Source: a virus
Virus record (IMG/VR): IMGVR_UViG_3300037010_003290
Location: 1 to 34,191 of that record
Strand: one strand, 5' to 3'
Length of the DNA stretch: 34,191 nt
Shown here: in pieces, positions 1,761 through 34,132 of the stretch
Layout of the letters: each line of letters starts with the position of its first letter
Numbering within the stretch: the first letter of the stretch is position 1
Made by a program: the position numbers and the translations under genes
The notes under the pieces: model-generated
Databases searched by the model: none
Told to the model about the DNA's origin: nothing
Seen by the model: only the letters and a program-made list of their open reading frames with translations

Positions 1761-3745
1761 GCACCGGCGCCCTCGCCAATCTACAGGGCGCGCAGGTCGC
1801 ACTCGCGCGCGAACGGGAGCTGCGGCGCACGGCGCTGCGGCCGCCGCCGAAGCTGACGATCTCCGAATGGGCGGACCGCTTTCGCGTGCTGAGCCGCAAG
1901 GCGAGCGCCGAGCCCGGGCGCTGGCGCACGTCGCGCGTGCCGTACACGCGCGAGATCATGGACACGCTGAGCAATCCCCGGGTGCAGCACGTCTGCTGGA
2001 TGAAGTGTTCGCAGATCGCGGCGACCGAGGTGATGACAAACTTCATCGGCTACCACATGCATCAGGATCCGTCGCCGATCCTCGTCATGCAGCCGACCAT
2101 CGACATGGCGCGCGCGTGGTCACTCGATCGACTCGACCCGATGCTGGCCGAGTCGCGCGAGCTGCGGTCGCTGGTTGCCAAGTCGAACCGCCGCGACAAG
2201 GGCGACACGATTCTGCACAAGGTGTTCGATGGCGGCCAGCTCGACATCGTCGGCTCCAACTCCACCGCCAGCCTGGCGTCGCGCCCAAAGCGTATCCTCG
2301 GCGCCGACGAGGTCGACCGCTTCACCGACGACGCCGGGGATGAAGGCGACCCGCTCACCCTCGGCGAGCGCCGTCTCGACACCTTCTGGAACCGAAAGAT
2401 CTTCGTTCCGTCGACACCGACGATTCGCGGCCTATCGCGCATCGAGAGCCTGTTCGAGTTGTCGGACCAGCGCCACTACCACGTACCGTGCCCACACTGT
2501 GGGCAGCTGCTCATTCTCCGCCGGCGCCGCCTGCTCTGGGACTCTGGCAGGCCGGACACCGCGCATTACGTCTGCCAGCAGCCCATCAATCCCGAGGGGC
2601 AGCCGATCGTCGAGCCGAGTAACACTGGCAAGGAGGGCGACGCAGCGACTGGTGCGCTGACGGCTGGATGTGGTGGGGTGATCGAGGAGCGGCACAAGTC
2701 GCGCATGCTCGCGGCCGGGCGCTGGATCGCCGCACGCCCTGGGCGCCAACGCGTCGGCTTCCACATCAACGCGCTGTACTCGCCGTTCATTCGATGGAGC
2801 GAGTTCGCCACGCTCTGGCTCGAGGCGCAGGGACGCCCGAAGAAGCTGAAGGTGTTCGTGAACACCTACCTCGCCGAGACGTGGAATGAGAATGCGGTGG
2901 GCGCCAACGCCGACACGCTGAAGGCGCGCCGGCAAAAGTTCGCCGCCGAGGTGCCGGCGGGCGTGGGCATTCTGATCGCGGCCGTAGACGTGCAGGGCGA
3001 TCGCTGCGAAGTCGACGTGTGGGGGTTCGGCGAGGGTGAAGAGTCGTGGCTGATTCGCCATGAAGTCATCTGGGGCGATCCGGCCATGCGCGCTACCTGG
3101 GACCGCGTGCAACTCGTGATCGCTCGCCCATGGCAGCATGAAGGCGGCGCAACCATCCGGGCGTCGGTCGCGTTCGTGGACTCCGGTGGCCACCACACCG
3201 ACGCCGTGTACTCCTTCTGCCGCCGGCGTATCGGCATCCCGCTCTGGCCGGTGAAGGGCGTCGGCGGCCCGGGCGTCGCGCCGCTCCGGATGCCGCTGCG
3301 GAAAACCAAGGCAAAGGCAAAGGTCGTCATCCTCGGCTCCGATGCGCTCAAGGATCTCGCGTTCGCCTACCTTGGCACCGAGCTCGCGGGCCCTGGCTAC
3401 ATCAACCTGCCCGACGACGCCACGAACGAATGGATCGAACAGCTGACCGGCGAGGAGGTGCGCGTCAGCCATGCGCACGGCAAGACGGTACGCCGGTATG
3501 AAAAGAAGCCCGGCGCCCGCAACGAAGCGCTCGACATGTTCTGCTATGCCCTCGCCGGCCTGATGTACTTCGGCGACACGCTGCGCGAGTCGCTGGGCAA
3601 GCGCGCCGCGGCGCTCATGGTGAAGGGGGAGACGGCGCGCGCCTTGGCCGCGGCGGCCGCCGATGGCGCGGCGGCGGAAGCGGAGGAACCGACGAAGAAG
3701 AAGCGGCGCAAACCTCGGCGATCGAGCTACGTGCACAACTATTGA
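1757..3745 (+). CDS. Terminase large subunit (GpA family), probable CTG start
   Basis: A packaging ATPase/nuclease of the lambda GpA type, 662 residues from the proposed start. The N-terminal signature KLTISEWADRFRVLS followed by AEPGRWRTSRVPYTREIMD lies partly upstream of the first GTG (1886). The frame is open back to 1718 and contains no ATG, GTG or TTG before 1886. The CTG at 1757 overlaps the small-subunit stop as CTGA, and GGAGG lies at 1748-1752. The ATPase Walker A region is around residues 82-91 (MKCSQIAATE). A Walker B-like ILGADEVDRF is near 180-189. A zinc-ribbon insertion includes CPHCG near 245 and GCGG near 304. The C-terminal nuclease has AAVDVQGDR near 408 and FVDSGGHHTDAV near 474. 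The C-terminus is lysine/arginine-rich. Confidence 0.93.
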   Translation: MSTGALANLQGAQVALARERELRRTALRPPPKLTISEWADRFRVLSRKASAEPGRWRTSRVPYTREIMDTLSNPRVQHVCWMKCSQIAATEVMTNFIGYHMHQDPSPILVMQPTIDMARAWSLDRLDPMLAESRELRSLVAKSNRRDKGDTILHKVFDGGQLDIVGSNSTASLASRPKRILGADEVDRFTDDAGDEGDPLTLGERRLDTFWNRKIFVPSTPTIRGLSRIESLFELSDQRHYHVPCPHCGQLLILRRRRLLWDSGRPDTAHYVCQQPINPEGQPIVEPSNTGKEGDAATGALTAGCGGVIEERHKSRMLAAGRWIAARPGRQRVGFHINALYSPFIRWSEFATLWLEAQGRPKKLKVFVNTYLAETWNENAVGANADTLKARRQKFAAEVPAGVGILIAAVDVQGDRCEVDVWGFGEGEESWLIRHEVIWGDPAMRATWDRVQLVIARPWQHEGGATIRASVAFVDSGGHHTDAVYSFCRRRIGIPLWPVKGVGGPGVAPLRMPLRKTKAKAKVVILGSDALKDLAFAYLGTELAGPGYINLPDDATNEWIEQLTGEEVRVSHAHGKTVRRYEKKPGARNEALDMFCYALAGLMYFGDTLRESLGKRAAALMVKGETARALAAAAADGAAAEAEEPTKKKRRKPRRSSYVHNY

Positions 3746-3804: not shown

Positions 3805-3832
3805 ACAACTGACAAACCGGTTCGAGGCCGGT
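3805..3832 (+). ncRNA. Leader element A: conserved box plus tRNA T-arm-like hairpin
   Basis: ACAACTGACA (3805-3814) is followed after one base by a 5-bp stem with a 7-nt loop: ACCGG, TTCGAGG, CCGGT (3816-3832). This has the geometry and TTCGANN loop of a tRNA T-arm. The same box, spacing and hairpin occur at 17536-17563. There the outermost pair is G-C instead of A-T, so the stem is kept by covariation. The 3' side of the hairpin is shared with the following terminator stem, so the two folds exclude each other. Whether it acts as RNA is inference. Confidence 0.45.
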
Positions 3833-3866
3833 GCCGCGACTCCCAGAGTCGCCGCACCGGCCTTTT
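3826..3866 (+). terminator. Intrinsic terminator in leader element A
   Basis: A 17-position inverted repeat with one mismatch has arms at 3826-3842 and 3846-3862 and a 3-nt loop, followed by TTTT at 3863-3866. It lies between the terminase gene and the joining-protein gene, which starts at 3885. Its 5' arm overlaps the T-arm-like hairpin, which suggests an attenuator in addition to simple operon insulation. Confidence 0.8.
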
Positions 3867-3884
3867 CGCGTTTCCAGGAGTGTC

Positions 3885-4424
3885 GTGGCCCCATCGATTC
3901 CCACCGCCGAACCTACCGTCCTCGTCACCAACTCGACGTGGACATGGGCGCCGTCCTTCGCTGATTTCCCGGCGCGTGATGGGTGGGGGTTGACGTATCG
4001 ATTGGTCGGCCCGGTGGTAAAGGAGTTCAGCGCGACAAACGATGGCACGGGCTTCCTCGTTGCCGTCGACTACGGCGAGACGAATCTCCCTCCGGGCACG
4101 TACACGCTCATCGGCATGGCCACCCTCGCCGGTCAGCGCTTCCCGACGACCAAGCAGATCGTCACGGTCATTGATGGCGCGGGCGCCGAGCAGAAGGGCG
4201 CGGCGCGCACGCTGTGGGCCGAGCAGATGCTCACGATCATCGAAGCCGTACTGGTCGGCAAAGCGAGCGCCGACATGGTCGAGTACAGCATTGCCGGCAA
4301 GTCCATCAAGTCGCACACGATGGAAGAGCTGTGGAAGGTGCGCGCCTCGCTCCGGCAAGAGCTGTACAAGAAGCGCACCGGCCGCAGCAGTCAGGTGGTG
4401 CGGGTGAGGTTCGGCAATGGGTAG
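3885..4424 (+). CDS. Head-tail joining protein: Ig-like N-domain plus gpW-like C-domain
   Basis: A 179-residue protein between terminase and portal, the position of gpW in lambda. Start chosen at GTG 3885 because AGGAG lies at 3876-3880; frames reaching further upstream run through the terminator hairpin. Residues about 5-95 are beta-rich (PTVLVTNSTWTWAPSFADFP, then TYRLVG..., then LPPGTYTLIG) and look like the Ig-like phage domain that often begins with a W-x-W plus LADYP motif. Residues about 125-175 (ADMVEYSIAGKSIKSHTMEE, then LWKVRASLRQELYKKR) match the pattern of gpW-type joining proteins: a short beta hairpin and a helix with alternating basic residues. The two-domain arrangement is inferred from sequence pattern. 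Confidence 0.7.
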   Translation: MAPSIPTAEPTVLVTNSTWTWAPSFADFPARDGWGLTYRLVGPVVKEFSATNDGTGFLVAVDYGETNLPPGTYTLIGMATLAGQRFPTTKQIVTVIDGAGAEQKGAARTLWAEQMLTIIEAVLVGKASADMVEYSIAGKSIKSHTMEELWKVRASLRQELYKKRTGRSSQVVRVRFGNG

Positions 4425-5970
4425 CCTGCGCCGCCTCCTGCACGCGTCGTCGCGACGCGATGCCTTCGATGGCGCGCAACAGGGGCGCCTCTTCGCGGAC
4501 TGGCAGGGCTACATCCAGTCCGCTACGCAGGAGATGCGCTACGAGCTGCGCACGCTGCGCGGGCGCTCACGCGAGCTGGCCCGGAACAATCCGCACATGC
4601 GGAAGTTCATCAATGCGCTGACGACCAACGTTGTCGGACCCAAGGGAATCCGGCTGCAGCCGACGAACCTCGGCCGCGACGGGAAGCGCGATCGACTGGC
4701 GAACGGCCTGATCCTCGCCTCGTGGCAGCGCTGGGGACAGCGCGACACCTGCACCCTCGAAAAGCGGTTGCGCTTCACGGACGTCGAACGGCTGGTGCTC
4801 GCCACCATTGCCATCGACGGCGAGGCGTTTGTGCGCGAGGTGCCGTTCGCCGACAACCCATTCGGCTACGCGCTGCAGCTGCTCGACGCCGACCTGCTCG
4901 ATGAAAACTACTTCGTCGAGCGTGGCCCGAACGGCAACCCGATCAAGATGGGCGTCGAAGTCGACCGTCTGACCAATGCCGCCCTCGGCTATTGGTTCTG
5001 GACGCGCCACCCGCAGGATATGACGTCGGGGCTCGCGCTGCAGCGCGTCTTCATCCCGGCCAGCGAAGTGCATCACCTGTTCCTCGTGTGGCGCATCGGA
5101 CAGCTGCGGGGCATCCCATGGGCCGCCCCGGCGATGAAGGCGCTGCGTCATCTCGGGGGATACGTCGACAACGAGCTCGTCGCCTCTCGCACCTCGGCGG
5201 CCAAAATGGGGTTCATCGAGCAGTCGCCTGCCGACGGCGCGAGTGGACCCGATCCCGATGCGGTGGACGGCGAAGACGAGCAGGCGCCATACCTCGAGGC
5301 CGCGCCCGGCATCATCGAACGCCTCGGCCCGGGCGAGAAATTCAGCAGCTGGAATCCGGAGCACCCGACCGGCCAGTTCGCCGCCTTTCTGAACGCGATG
5401 CTGCACTTCATCGCCGCCGGCGTAAACACCGCGGCGGTGACGCTGTCCGGTGATCTCAGCCAGGCAAACTACAGCTCGCTGCGCGAGGGCAAGAACACCG
5501 AGCGCGATGCGTGGGAAATCCTGCAGGACTGGTTCGCGGGAATCTTCCACGAACCGATCTACAGCACGTGGCTGCCCATGGCGCGCGCGACGGGTGCGCT
5601 GGCCCTTGCCGGTAACATCGGTCGCTGGCTCCTCCACAAGTGGCAGGCGCGCGGCTGGCGCTGGGTCGATCCCCTCAAGGACGTGCAGGCGTCAGAGCGC
5701 GAACTCGCGCTGCGCCTGACCACGCGCACCCGACTCGCCGCCGAGCGCGGCGATGACTTCGAAGAACTCCTGGTCGAGTGGAAGGCGGAGCAAGAGCTGG
5801 CCGCCGAGCTCGGCGTGGATCTCCCTGACGTTCAACCCTCCCCCATAGCCCCGGGAACCTATGACAGCATCGACTCTGGTGTCGGCGCCTCCGGATCTGA
5901 AGGCGCTGCCGGTACAGCGTCGTCGGGTAGCGGTCGCGCTCGACTCGTCGCGCTTCGCAACACGCGCTGA
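4417..5970 (+). CDS. Portal protein (lambda gpB family)
   Basis: A 517-residue portal. The dodecameric portal forms the DNA channel at the unique vertex and docks terminase and the neck. Typical of the lambda-B family are the N-terminal SARRD-like segment (LRRLLHASSRRDAFDGA), the helical LRGRSRELARNNPHMRKFIN followed by NVVGPKGIRLQP, the conserved EVHHLFLVWRIGQLRGIPW segment, and the DLSQANYSSLREGKNTERDA segment followed by a tryptophan-rich clip region. It overlaps the preceding gene by 8 bases. The last about 35 residues are a Gly/Ser/Ala-rich tail, and this stretch is overlapped by the start of the protease-capsid gene. Confidence 0.93.
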   Translation: MGSLRRLLHASSRRDAFDGAQQGRLFADWQGYIQSATQEMRYELRTLRGRSRELARNNPHMRKFINALTTNVVGPKGIRLQPTNLGRDGKRDRLANGLILASWQRWGQRDTCTLEKRLRFTDVERLVLATIAIDGEAFVREVPFADNPFGYALQLLDADLLDENYFVERGPNGNPIKMGVEVDRLTNAALGYWFWTRHPQDMTSGLALQRVFIPASEVHHLFLVWRIGQLRGIPWAAPAMKALRHLGGYVDNELVASRTSAAKMGFIEQSPADGASGPDPDAVDGEDEQAPYLEAAPGIIERLGPGEKFSSWNPEHPTGQFAAFLNAMLHFIAAGVNTAAVTLSGDLSQANYSSLREGKNTERDAWEILQDWFAGIFHEPIYSTWLPMARATGALALAGNIGRWLLHKWQARGWRWVDPLKDVQASERELALRLTTRTRLAAERGDDFEELLVEWKAEQELAAELGVDLPDVQPSPIAPGTYDSIDSGVGASGSEGAAGTASSGSGRARLVALRNTR

Positions 5971-7774
5971 CGGCGATACCCGCCTTCCGATCTGCCTGTC
6001 GTCCGAGGCCCCGTACCAGCGCTGGTGGGGCACGGAAATCCTCGGTCACGACGCCGGTGAAGTGGACCTCGCCTACTGCGAACGCGGCCTCGCGTTCTGC
6101 GCCGATCACGACACCGAACGTCAGATCGGCGTGCTCGAGGAGGTCACGGTCGACACGGACGGCTGCATTCGCGGATTGCTGCGCTTCGGCGCGCACCCCG
6201 ACGCCGCATGGATCGAGAAAGACATGCGCGACGGCGTTCGACCCTACGTCTCGGTGGGCTATCGCATCAACGCGATGCTGCTCACCGAGTGCGATGAAAA
6301 TGACAACTGCACCTACCGCGTGACGAGCTGGACCCTGCTCGAGGGTTCCTCGGTCGCGGTGCCGGCGGACGTCTCCGTCGGTGTTGGGCGTGACGCGGAC
6401 CTGGACGCGTTCCCGCTCGTGATTGTTCGCCAGGCCAACCTCACGCCCCGCAAGGGCAAGGAGAAGGAGGATTCCATGGGCACTTCTGCAGCCCCGGCTC
6501 CCGCCCCCGCGGCGGCGCCGACCAATCCCGACGCGATTCGCATGGCTGTCGAGGCCGAGCGCGAACGCGCCAGCACCATCCGCTCCATGGCCTCCGAACT
6601 CGGCGTCGCCGACACGGACGTCCAGCGGTTCATCGATGACGGATCGGACGTCGGCGCGGCCGGTCGCGCGCTGATTGCGCTGAAGCGCACGCAGGGCGCC
6701 GGCCGCCCCGCCGCCGTCGTCACTACCACGCATGACCGCGCGGGCGACCGCCCGTGGGACAACGCGGGCGACTTCTTTCGCGCCGTCATCGACGCCGGTC
6801 GCGGACGCGGCGTGGACCCGCGTCTCTCGACGCGCGCCGCGTCGGGCGTGGGAGAGGGCATCGGATCGGAAGGCGGCTTCTGGGTCGCTCCGCCGGCCGT
6901 GATGGACACGCTGCTCGAGCGCATCACCGGCCCGCAGGGTGGGGAGATCCTGCGCCGCGTGAACCAGATCCCGGTCACCGTCGGCAACGGTACGAAGGTA
7001 CCGGGCATCGACGAGTCGAGCCGGGCCAGCGGTTCCCGCTGGGGCGGCGTCTCGGTCACCTACGGCGACGAAGGTGGCACGATCGCCACGTCGAAGCCGA
7101 AGGCCCGCCAGGTGGAGCTCAACCTCAAGAAGGCTGTCGGCGCCTGCGTGATCACCGAGGAAATGCTCGAAGACTCGCCGATGGCGACGACGATCATCGA
7201 GCAGGCGTTCGGCGAGGAATTCACGTTCGTGATCGAGGACATGATCATGAACGGCACGGGCGCTGGCACGCCGCTCGGCATCATGAACTCCGGCTCTCTC
7301 GTCACGCAGACGAAGGAAGCTGCGCAGGCGGCGAACACCTTCAACGCGGCGAACGCGGCGAAGATGTATTCGCGCTTCGGCGGCAAGACGGCGCGCGGTG
7401 CCTGGCTGGTGGACCAGTCGGTGCTCGCGCAGCTGATGCAGATGACGGTCGGCCAGTCGCCCGTCTTCCTGCCCCCGGGCGGCCTGAAGGACTCGCCCTA
7501 CGGCTTCCTCCTGGGGATGCCGGTCATCTTCACCGAGTACAACGCCGCGCTCAGCTCGCTGGGCGACGTCGTGCTCGCCGACCTCGGCTACTACCTCTTC
7601 GCGGTGAAGGGTGGGCTCCGTCAGGCGCAGTCGATGCACGTGCGGTTCCTGCAGGACGAACAGGTTCTGAAGTTCGTGCACCGTCACGATGGTCAGCCGT
7701 CGATCAACGCGCCACTGACCCCGAAGAACGGCGGCGCCACGCGCTCGCCGTTTGTCACGCTGGAAGCGCGCTAA
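5861..7774 (+). CDS. Prohead protease-major capsid protein fusion (HK97-type)
   Basis: One 637-residue ORF carries two phage functions. Residues about 40-175 match an S78-type prohead protease: SSEAPYQRWWGTEIL, ADHD with candidate catalytic His83, PYVSVGYRI with Ser131, and the closing LLEGSSVAVPAD around residues 159-170. Residues about 205-300 form a low-complexity and helical delta/scaffold-like segment (APAPAPAAAP, then AVEAERERASTIRSM). From about 330 on is an HK97-fold capsid protein: GSEGGFWVAPPAVMDTLLE, the ELNLKKAVGACVITEEMLED spine region, and the C-terminal GDVVLADLGYYLFAVKGG. The ATG at 5861 overlaps the portal gene by 110 bases; no better start lies before the protease motifs. 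A strong internal start at 6476 could yield capsid protein alone. Confidence 0.92.
   Translation: MTASTLVSAPPDLKALPVQRRRVAVALDSSRFATRADGDTRLPICLSSEAPYQRWWGTEILGHDAGEVDLAYCERGLAFCADHDTERQIGVLEEVTVDTDGCIRGLLRFGAHPDAAWIEKDMRDGVRPYVSVGYRINAMLLTECDENDNCTYRVTSWTLLEGSSVAVPADVSVGVGRDADLDAFPLVIVRQANLTPRKGKEKEDSMGTSAAPAPAPAAAPTNPDAIRMAVEAERERASTIRSMASELGVADTDVQRFIDDGSDVGAAGRALIALKRTQGAGRPAAVVTTTHDRAGDRPWDNAGDFFRAVIDAGRGRGVDPRLSTRAASGVGEGIGSEGGFWVAPPAVMDTLLERITGPQGGEILRRVNQIPVTVGNGTKVPGIDESSRASGSRWGGVSVTYGDEGGTIATSKPKARQVELNLKKAVGACVITEEMLEDSPMATTIIEQAFGEEFTFVIEDMIMNGTGAGTPLGIMNSGSLVTQTKEAAQAANTFNAANAAKMYSRFGGKTARGAWLVDQSVLAQLMQMTVGQSPVFLPPGGLKDSPYGFLLGMPVIFTEYNAALSSLGDVVLADLGYYLFAVKGGLRQAQSMHVRFLQDEQVLKFVHRHDGQPSINAPLTPKNGGATRSPFVTLEAR
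6459..6478 (+). promoter_or_regulatory. Internal ribosome binding site and in-frame ATG for separate capsid protein
   Basis: AAGGAGAAGGAGG ends at 6470, five bases before an ATG at 6476-6478 that is in frame with the protease-capsid fusion (codon 206). This is one of the best Shine-Dalgarno sequences in the window. Initiation here would give a 432-residue delta-domain plus capsid product, by analogy with nested scaffold genes such as lambda C/Nu3. Confidence 0.6.
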
Positions 7775-32143: not shown

Positions 32144-32667
32144 TGGCCCACCACAACGCCACGGCTCGCGACCTCGAGTCGGACATTGTCGGCACGAAGC
32201 CGGCGCGCCCGGCCGCCGTGCTCGACTTCGGCCCGCTGTTCAGCACCGCCGCGTCGCCACCACTAGAGCCGCCGCGGCCGCGCTCATGGACCGAACACTA
32301 CGCCGCGCTCGCCGCCAACTCGCGCGACGGGGCCAAGCTGAACGAGCTCGGCGCCGCGGTGATGAACCGATTACTCGACGCGTTCGGCAGCGCCGCCGTG
32401 TGGGAAGTGCGACTCGCCCTGGGCGCGCAGAAGAAGATCGCGAACAATGGAAAGGAAACGCTCGACGGGCTCGGTGGGCTCGGCACCGGTATGGGGCTGC
32501 AGGCCGTCGACCGCGAGCGCCCGCCTGCCTGGGCGCGCGAGGAGCTGGAGAAGTCCCACGGCAACGTCAACACCGTCTGGGTGCGGCCGTCGCGCGTGGC
32601 GCAGTACGACGCGGCGGCACGGCGCCGTCGCCTCGCGCAGGAAACCCCTGATTCCAAGGAGAACTGA
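32143..32667 (+). CDS. Early-operon protein upstream of ParB-like gene
   Basis: A 174-residue protein from ATG 32143 (TGATG overlap). The N-terminal about 45 residues are Pro/Ala-rich and probably disordered. The middle is helical (WTEHYAALAANSRDGAKLNE, then LGAAVMNRLLDAFGSAAVWE), and the C-terminus is charged with WVRPSRVAQYDAAARRRRLA. It is immediately upstream of the ParB-like gene and may belong to a partition or replication unit; no motif proves this. Confidence 0.5.
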   Translation: MAHHNATARDLESDIVGTKPARPAAVLDFGPLFSTAASPPLEPPRPRSWTEHYAALAANSRDGAKLNELGAAVMNRLLDAFGSAAVWEVRLALGAQKKIANNGKETLDGLGGLGTGMGLQAVDRERPPAWAREELEKSHGNVNTVWVRPSRVAQYDAAARRRRLAQETPDSKEN

Positions 32668-32668
32668 G

Positions 32669-34132
32669 ATGTCTGCACTGGCACTGCAGATGCTCCCCAT
32701 CGGGAGCATCCATGAGTCCCCCCTGAACCCGCGCAAGCACTACGACGCGGCCGCGATCGAGCAGCTGGCCGACTCACTGCGCAAGGTGGGCGTGCTGAAC
32801 GCGCTGACCGCCCGCCCACGCAAGGTGGGCGGCGGCTACGAGCTAGCCGCAGGGCATCGCCGGCTGCGCGCAGCGAAGATCGCCAAGATGGCCGAGGTCC
32901 CGGTGAACGTCCGCGAGATGGATGACGCGACCTTCATCGAAGTGATGACCATCGACAACCTGCAGCGGGACGATCTGCATCCGCTCGAAGAGGCGCAGGG
33001 TTTCCGCTCGCTGATGGAGAAGTCCATCGGCTATGACGTGGCGAAGATCGCCGACCGCGTTGGGCGTTCCGCTGGCTACGTCTACGACCGCCTGCGTCTG
33101 CTGCAGCTCACCCCGAAGGCGCAGGACCTGTTCCTTGCCAAGCGGTTCACGCTGGCGCATGCGGTGCTGCTATCGCGCTTGAACGCCGAGCAGCAGGAGA
33201 AGGCGATCGAGATCCGTGGGGACGGTTTGTTTCGCATCGAGCACACACGACAGTACGAGCTCGAAGGCGAAGATTCCGAGGACGACTATGCGAACACCAA
33301 GCCCTGCAGCGTGCGGGAGTTCTCGGACTGGATTGATCGGCACGTGCGCCTCGACCTCGAGGCGGAGGACATTCCGACGCTGTTTCCTGCGTTGAGCCAG
33401 CAGCTCGCGCTCGCTGATACGTCAGCCGCCAAGGTGCTCGAGATCTCGCTGGAGTCGCAGCTGCACCCCGACGCGAAGTCCAGCAGCCGCACGCTCGGCC
33501 CGCAGAGCTGGCGCCGGGCGGAGAAGCCATGCAAGAGCCAGGCGCTTGGCGTGGTCGTCGCGGGCATCCGCCGCGGCGAGTCGTTCATGATCTGCACCGA
33601 CAAGAAGAAGTGCACGACGCACTGGGGGAGCGAGATTCGCGCGGCCGCCGCGCTCGAGAAGGCGAAGCTGACGGGCAGCAAGACGGCGGTCGAGACGGCA
33701 CAGCGCACTGTGACCTCGAACGAAGATCGCTGGAAGAAGGAGATGGAAGAGCGGCGGCGCTACGACGAGGCGGTGCCGGCCATGGTGGCCGCGCTCTCCG
33801 CTGCCATCCGGAAGGCGCCGACCGGGCCGAAGTCGGCGGTCGGGCTCTTGCTCACCGAAGAGTTTCGGCAGGAGCTCGACTGCGACTACTATGCGGATGA
33901 CACGATGTGGACCGCGAAGAACGATGCCGACCTGGTGCGCCTGACGGCGTTGATGTTGGTCGTGCGCTCGATCGACAACTCGTATGCGGCGAAGAGCGGC
34001 GCCAAGGTGGCGAAGCAGTTCGGCGTGGACATCATGAAGATTGTGAAGGACCTGGCGGCGGCCGAGAAGCGGGCGGCGGAGAAGCCGGCGCAGGCGAAGA
34101 AGGGAGTCGCGAAGAAGAAGGGTGTGCGCTGA
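32669..34132 (+). CDS. ParB/Spo0J-family DNA-binding protein
   Basis: A 487-residue protein from ATG 32669, with AAGGAGA upstream. The N-terminal ParB/CTPase-type domain has MLPIGSIHESPLNPRKHYD, then LADSLRKVGVLNALTARPRK and the signature GHRRLRAAK at about 62-70, where the GxxRxxA box binds CTP in ParB clamps. IDNLQRDDLHPLEEAQGF (about 94-111) is the second ParB box. A KorB/HTH-type domain follows (AKIADRVGRSAGYVYDRLRL). A long C-terminal region carries a Cys/His cluster (CTDKKKCTTHW) and ends in a Lys/Ala tail. No ParA gene is seen in the window. ParB proteins spread from parS and organise segregation; in phages they can also act as regulators. The phage carries a consensus parS site at 23161. 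Confidence 0.87.
   Translation: MSALALQMLPIGSIHESPLNPRKHYDAAAIEQLADSLRKVGVLNALTARPRKVGGGYELAAGHRRLRAAKIAKMAEVPVNVREMDDATFIEVMTIDNLQRDDLHPLEEAQGFRSLMEKSIGYDVAKIADRVGRSAGYVYDRLRLLQLTPKAQDLFLAKRFTLAHAVLLSRLNAEQQEKAIEIRGDGLFRIEHTRQYELEGEDSEDDYANTKPCSVREFSDWIDRHVRLDLEAEDIPTLFPALSQQLALADTSAAKVLEISLESQLHPDAKSSSRTLGPQSWRRAEKPCKSQALGVVVAGIRRGESFMICTDKKKCTTHWGSEIRAAAALEKAKLTGSKTAVETAQRTVTSNEDRWKKEMEERRRYDEAVPAMVAALSAAIRKAPTGPKSAVGLLLTEEFRQELDCDYYADDTMWTAKNDADLVRLTALMLVVRSIDNSYAAKSGAKVAKQFGVDIMKIVKDLAAAEKRAAEKPAQAKKGVAKKKGVR

Follow-up and report, generated by a model that had tools for sequence, protein, structure and literature searches.

A candidate conserved internal start between the protease and capsid parts of fused phage capsid genes

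A T=7 phage head is built from 415 capsid subunits, which raises the question of how phages that encode their prohead protease and capsid protein in one fused gene avoid placing a protease on every subunit. The question is posed by a virus record of 34,191 bases with a GC content of 67% (IMG/VR record IMGVR_UViG_3300037010_003290, whose whole length is called the window here), in which an S78-like prohead protease domain is followed by a capsid domain in ORF 5861-7774. Protease-capsid fusions of this kind and their lambda-type neighbours are already known; the new part is an internal start, which is not peculiar to the window. No description of an internal start in protease-capsid fusions was found in the open-access literature searched, where absence is not proof. 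A second start between the protease and capsid parts, present in dozens of distantly related phage genes, probably serves to make far more capsid than protease. A conserved start at this place would be a simple answer to the protease-dosage puzzle for the whole superfamily, and would imply that many annotated major capsid proteins (MCPs) carry the wrong N-terminus for the main product.

Architecture and surroundings of the fused gene

The ORF encodes 637 aa without an internal stop, and upstream of the ATG at 5861 the reading frame is open for just four codons (open frame of 641 aa). Profiles match both of its parts, bearing out the original prediction that an S78-type protease and an HK97-fold capsid are carried by a single uninterrupted frame. 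The capsid part scores well above the curated cut-offs of PF05065 (1e-26; 94.4 vs 24.2 bits) and TIGR01554 (3.6e-38; 131.7 vs 27.5 bits), and its best match is phrog_10. The protease region matches NF045541 (3.9e-38), phrog_617, and phrog_4523, with the NF045541 score of 131.5 bits lying below the curated cut-off of 525 bits and the alignment confined to residues 43-294. The profile for HK97-type S78 proteases, TIGR01543, gives 24.5 bits over residues 75-174, below its 59-bit cut-off, and no Pfam protease match to the window protein was found at 1e-3. Within the protease part, His83, Ser131, Glu161, and Asp170 are invariant across 39 relatives, His83 and Ser131 being the putative catalytic pair.

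An AlphaFold model built with the same number of relatives (39) is confident for the protease at residues ~40-166, of low confidence from 168 to 222, including residue 206, and again confident for helices between 223 and 279 (Table 1). The capsid part is modelled poorly (pTM 0.34), so that the HK97-fold capsids ranking first in a Foldseek search with this model, whose capsid part is of low confidence, carry little weight. By analogy with phages R4C and HK97, the delta-like segment is presumably lost from the mature capsid, and the delta region may reach from residue 206 to near 325.

Table 1. Positions of the fused capsid gene, its parts, and its neighbours in the window
Feature	Position	Strand	Basis or remark
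Terminase large subunit, lambda gpA type	1886..3745	+	
Head-tail joining (connector) gene, between terminase and portal	3831..4424	+	phrog_5774, 7e-19
Lambda-family portal gene	4417..5970	+	
Tripartite capsid gene, 637 aa: S78-like prohead protease, linker, delta-like segment, HK97-fold MCP	5861..7774	+	
Protease part, residues 1-177, C-terminal end VPADVSVGVGR	5861..6391	+	confident fold ~40-166
Linker, residues 178-222, disordered and poorly alignable; houses the internal start	6392..6526	+	
Shine-Dalgarno AAGGAGAAGGAGG	6458..6470	+	
Internal ATG, codon 206, putative delta-capsid start	6476..6478	+	sequence features and conservation
Putative nested product, delta + capsid, 432 aa	6476..7774	+	reading frame and conservation statistics
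Helical delta (scaffold)-like segment, residues 223-280	6527..6700	+	predicted helices 223-246, 251-259, 264-279
HK97-fold capsid domain, residues ~331-637	6851..7771	+	profile matches and Foldseek

The 3′ end of the portal gene overlaps the start of the fusion by 110 nt, and translation of the full-length fusion may therefore depend on coupling. The original prediction had singled out the placing of HK97-type capsid logic beside a lambda-type terminase and portal. The arrangement is present, but we rejected it as unusual, since phiHAP-1, Jilinvirus, Foxunavirus, Cronusvirus, and others place the fusion next to the same kinds of genes, an order that is ordinary for the family. Elsewhere in the window, a weak minor-tail match (phrog_1924, 2e-7) lies ahead of the terminase at 26-607, and a 561-aa protein encoded at 32447-34132 contains a ParB-like region (phrog_4715, 2e-38) and gives a weaker match to a DNA-methyltransferase family. 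On the minus strand, a 670-aa open frame (5675-7687) runs antisense to the capsid gene and is probably a shadow ORF arising from GC-rich coding sequence.

The junction start and its conservation

Within the linker, AAGGAGAAGGAGG is separated by a 5-nt spacer (ATTCC) from the in-frame ATG at codon 206, in agreement with the original description of a strong Shine-Dalgarno (SD) sequence at ideal spacing before this codon. Pairing with the 16S tail is predicted at -11.7 kcal/mol for 6476 vs -4.3 for the annotated start; among all + strand ATGs in the 34-kb window, 6476 is one of just two that reach -11.5 with a spacer of 4-9 nt. A very strong SD (AGGAGGTGCG, -15.4) also precedes the ATG at 3471, which lies out of frame inside the terminase gene and begins none of the listed ORFs of at least 60 aa. 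Taken by itself, the window gene gives no significance, as its SD strength does not stand out in a synonymous shuffle (p=0.29); the peptide K-E-K-E-D by itself favours an SD-like site, so that an SD seen only in the window could follow from the protein sequence. The site is called more than chance because it is conserved across relatives.

The closest relative, 62% identical to the window protein, keeps the SD as GGGAAGGAGGA together with the ATG, and its flanking linker has diverged. When 15 fusions were aligned, most of them sharing 22-25% identity with the window, nearly every one had a Met at the equivalent position, in a linker that is otherwise unalignable. A profile search returned 80 IMG/VR loci, giving 87 ORFs once phage records were added, and nearly all of these show the junction-start pattern. 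The window protein has no relative in a collection of genome contigs, and NF045540 gave no hit above its cut-off in control genomes.

For statistics, the main set comprised 51 fused ORFs with less than 60% identity to one another. The junction ATG was picked by position alone, without regard to the SD, taking the first one that occurs 8-55 codons beyond the protease motif. Such an ATG is present in all 51 nonredundant genes, and it falls within codons 8-40 in 94%, vs 59% expected from Met frequency. Mean SD pairing at the junction ATG is -7.4 kcal/mol, vs -2.9 at 728 other in-frame ATGs (MWU p=9e-19), -3.2 at 249 nearby out-of-frame ATGs (p=5e-15), and -5.0 in synonymous shuffles (Wilcoxon p=3e-8), where these and the following p-values should be taken as a ranking of strength because related genes are non-independent samples. 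The spacers between SD and junction ATG cluster at 4-8 nt. Local mRNA folding at the junction ATG is weaker in 49 of the 51 genes (-6.0 vs -14.0), with the caveat that a low-GC, K/E-rich linker alone would lower structure and raise purine content. The residue following the junction Met is Pro, Ser, or Thr in 34/51 vs 111/545 (20%; p=2e-11). A further 25 loci, collected with a different profile and the same signature motif, were less than 60% identical among themselves and to the first set; here the ATG is present in 24, SD pairing again stands out (p=2e-7), structure is weaker in 23 of 24, and the preference at residue 2 is weaker than in the first set (p=0.01).

At locus L086 the junction ATG is replaced by a GTG after AAGGAG. 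Among the exceptions to the pattern, L261 is without the ATG and offers only a weak GTG as candidate. The Met is kept without a convincing SD in the Synechococcus phages S-LBS1 (L010) and S-CBS1 (L018), perhaps because their hosts rely less on SD sequences, and also in phage Murka and at locus L203.

A nested gene and the competing explanations

Judged from sequence, ORF 5861-7774 would very probably be a nested gene that yields few protease-delta-capsid fusions and many delta-capsids. We infer initiation at 6476, dominance of the short form, and the assembly and cleavage steps that would follow. Ribosomes starting at 5861 would produce the minor protease-delta-capsid fusion, while those starting at the internal SD and ATG 6476 would produce delta-capsid as the major product. 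Both products share the capsid C-terminus, and the fusion would thus co-assemble as a small fraction of the subunits, bringing the protease into the procapsid to cut off the delta segments and release itself by self-cleavage. A predicted excess of capsids from an internal start over a few fusions, as first proposed, is the best-supported reading given a start-like site conserved family-wide. In 16 genes where the inner and outer SD were compared, the internal one is stronger in nine, tied in one, and weaker in six, so that the SD alone does not reveal the ratio of products, in which coupling with the portal may play a part as well. Extended to the superfamily, it is likely that most fused protease-capsid genes are two nested genes, with an unannotated conserved internal start setting the ratio of capsid to protease-capsid, and ClpP-type (mEp460/Gifsy-2-like) fusions may have evolved this solution too or come to share it.

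The virion of R4C, a member of the family, fits the nested-gene reading; its head holds 415 copies of the capsid protein (PMC10276861). The chain modelled in the R4C capsid structure (PDB 8gta) comprises residues 362-629 of the 629-aa fusion, and the protease and delta are therefore absent from the modelled virion chain. The internal start of R4C, at codon 189, lies upstream of residue 362 and would give a product of 441 aa made up of delta and capsid. The mature R4C capsid would, however, look identical after cleavage if only the full-length fusion were made and the protease of every subunit later removed itself and delta, the junction Met and purines being incidental to a charged linker. The full-length protein is indeed the sole annotation in all records, and a K/E-rich linker tends to encode SD-like DNA. 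We nevertheless consider this unlikely, as it leaves unexplained an SD beyond synonymous expectation, the clustering of spacers, a Met held in an unalignable linker, the Pro, Ser, or Thr that follows it, and replication of the pattern in the second set.

Very improbable is an internal start that persists as an unused relic of protease and capsid genes once separate and later fused. HK97-type and other phages do encode the two separately, and a Pro, Ser, or Thr second residue would suit a former start too, but a relic would be expected to decay, yet the site persists in genes less than 60% identical with very different linkers, and a split protease/capsid gene was not seen among 74 loci. Equally improbable is the idea that the SD-like stretch, which sits just past the protease fold, slows elongating ribosomes and lets the protease fold first, as pausing requires no ATG at start-codon spacing, no Pro, Ser, or Thr second residue, and no weak local structure.

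Comparison with known capsid gene arrangements

The nested-gene reading can be set against several known systems. Fusions of the NF045541, phrog_617, and phrog_4523 families have the same order of S78-like protease and capsid in a single ORF beside a gpA-type terminase and lambda-type portal; these families describe the fusion only, leaving an internal start unmentioned, and the window, at 131 bits, falls well short of the 525-bit cut-off of NF045541. In lambda, Nu3 is made from an internal in-frame start. The lambda C/Nu3 pair works alike in that this start, within the protease gene, yields an abundant assembly protein, whereas the nested product there is scaffold only, with the capsid protein gpE encoded by a separate gene, and the nested product in the window would be delta plus capsid. 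The analogy to nested scaffold translation drawn in the original prediction thus stands for the in-frame internal start with its ribosome binding site and the shared C-terminus, but fails in that the frame runs on through the capsid domain to 7774, with no separate scaffold. The C and Nu3 genes overlap (cited in PMC8508860). HK97 has the same kind of protease, a delta segment that is removed in maturation, and the same capsid fold. Its protease gp4 and capsid gp5 are encoded by two separate genes (PMC8508860).

The three-in-one genes of MD8 and mEp460 likewise combine protease, scaffold, and capsid in one gene, with a ClpP-type protease vs the S78 type in the window. Gifsy-2 also has a three-in-one capsid gene with a ClpP-like protease. 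For Pseudomonas phage MD8, the gene has been described as joining a ClpP-like protease, scaffold, and capsid (PMC8508860), and a term search of that paper returned nothing on an internal start. In ClpP-type genes of mEp460 and its kin, at L100 (4352-6310) and L101-L181, the protease is closely followed by an ATG in an EEFxKMP-like context that has GAGGA 9-10 nt before it, which is only suggestive because the protein context there is conserved. One gene bridges the two types: in Paenibacillus phage Pd_22F (locus L019, 2384-4426), an S78-like protease as in the window is joined to an mEp460-like capsid part that matches mEp460 residues 210-649, a chimera which suggests that protease modules have been swapped near the junction start.
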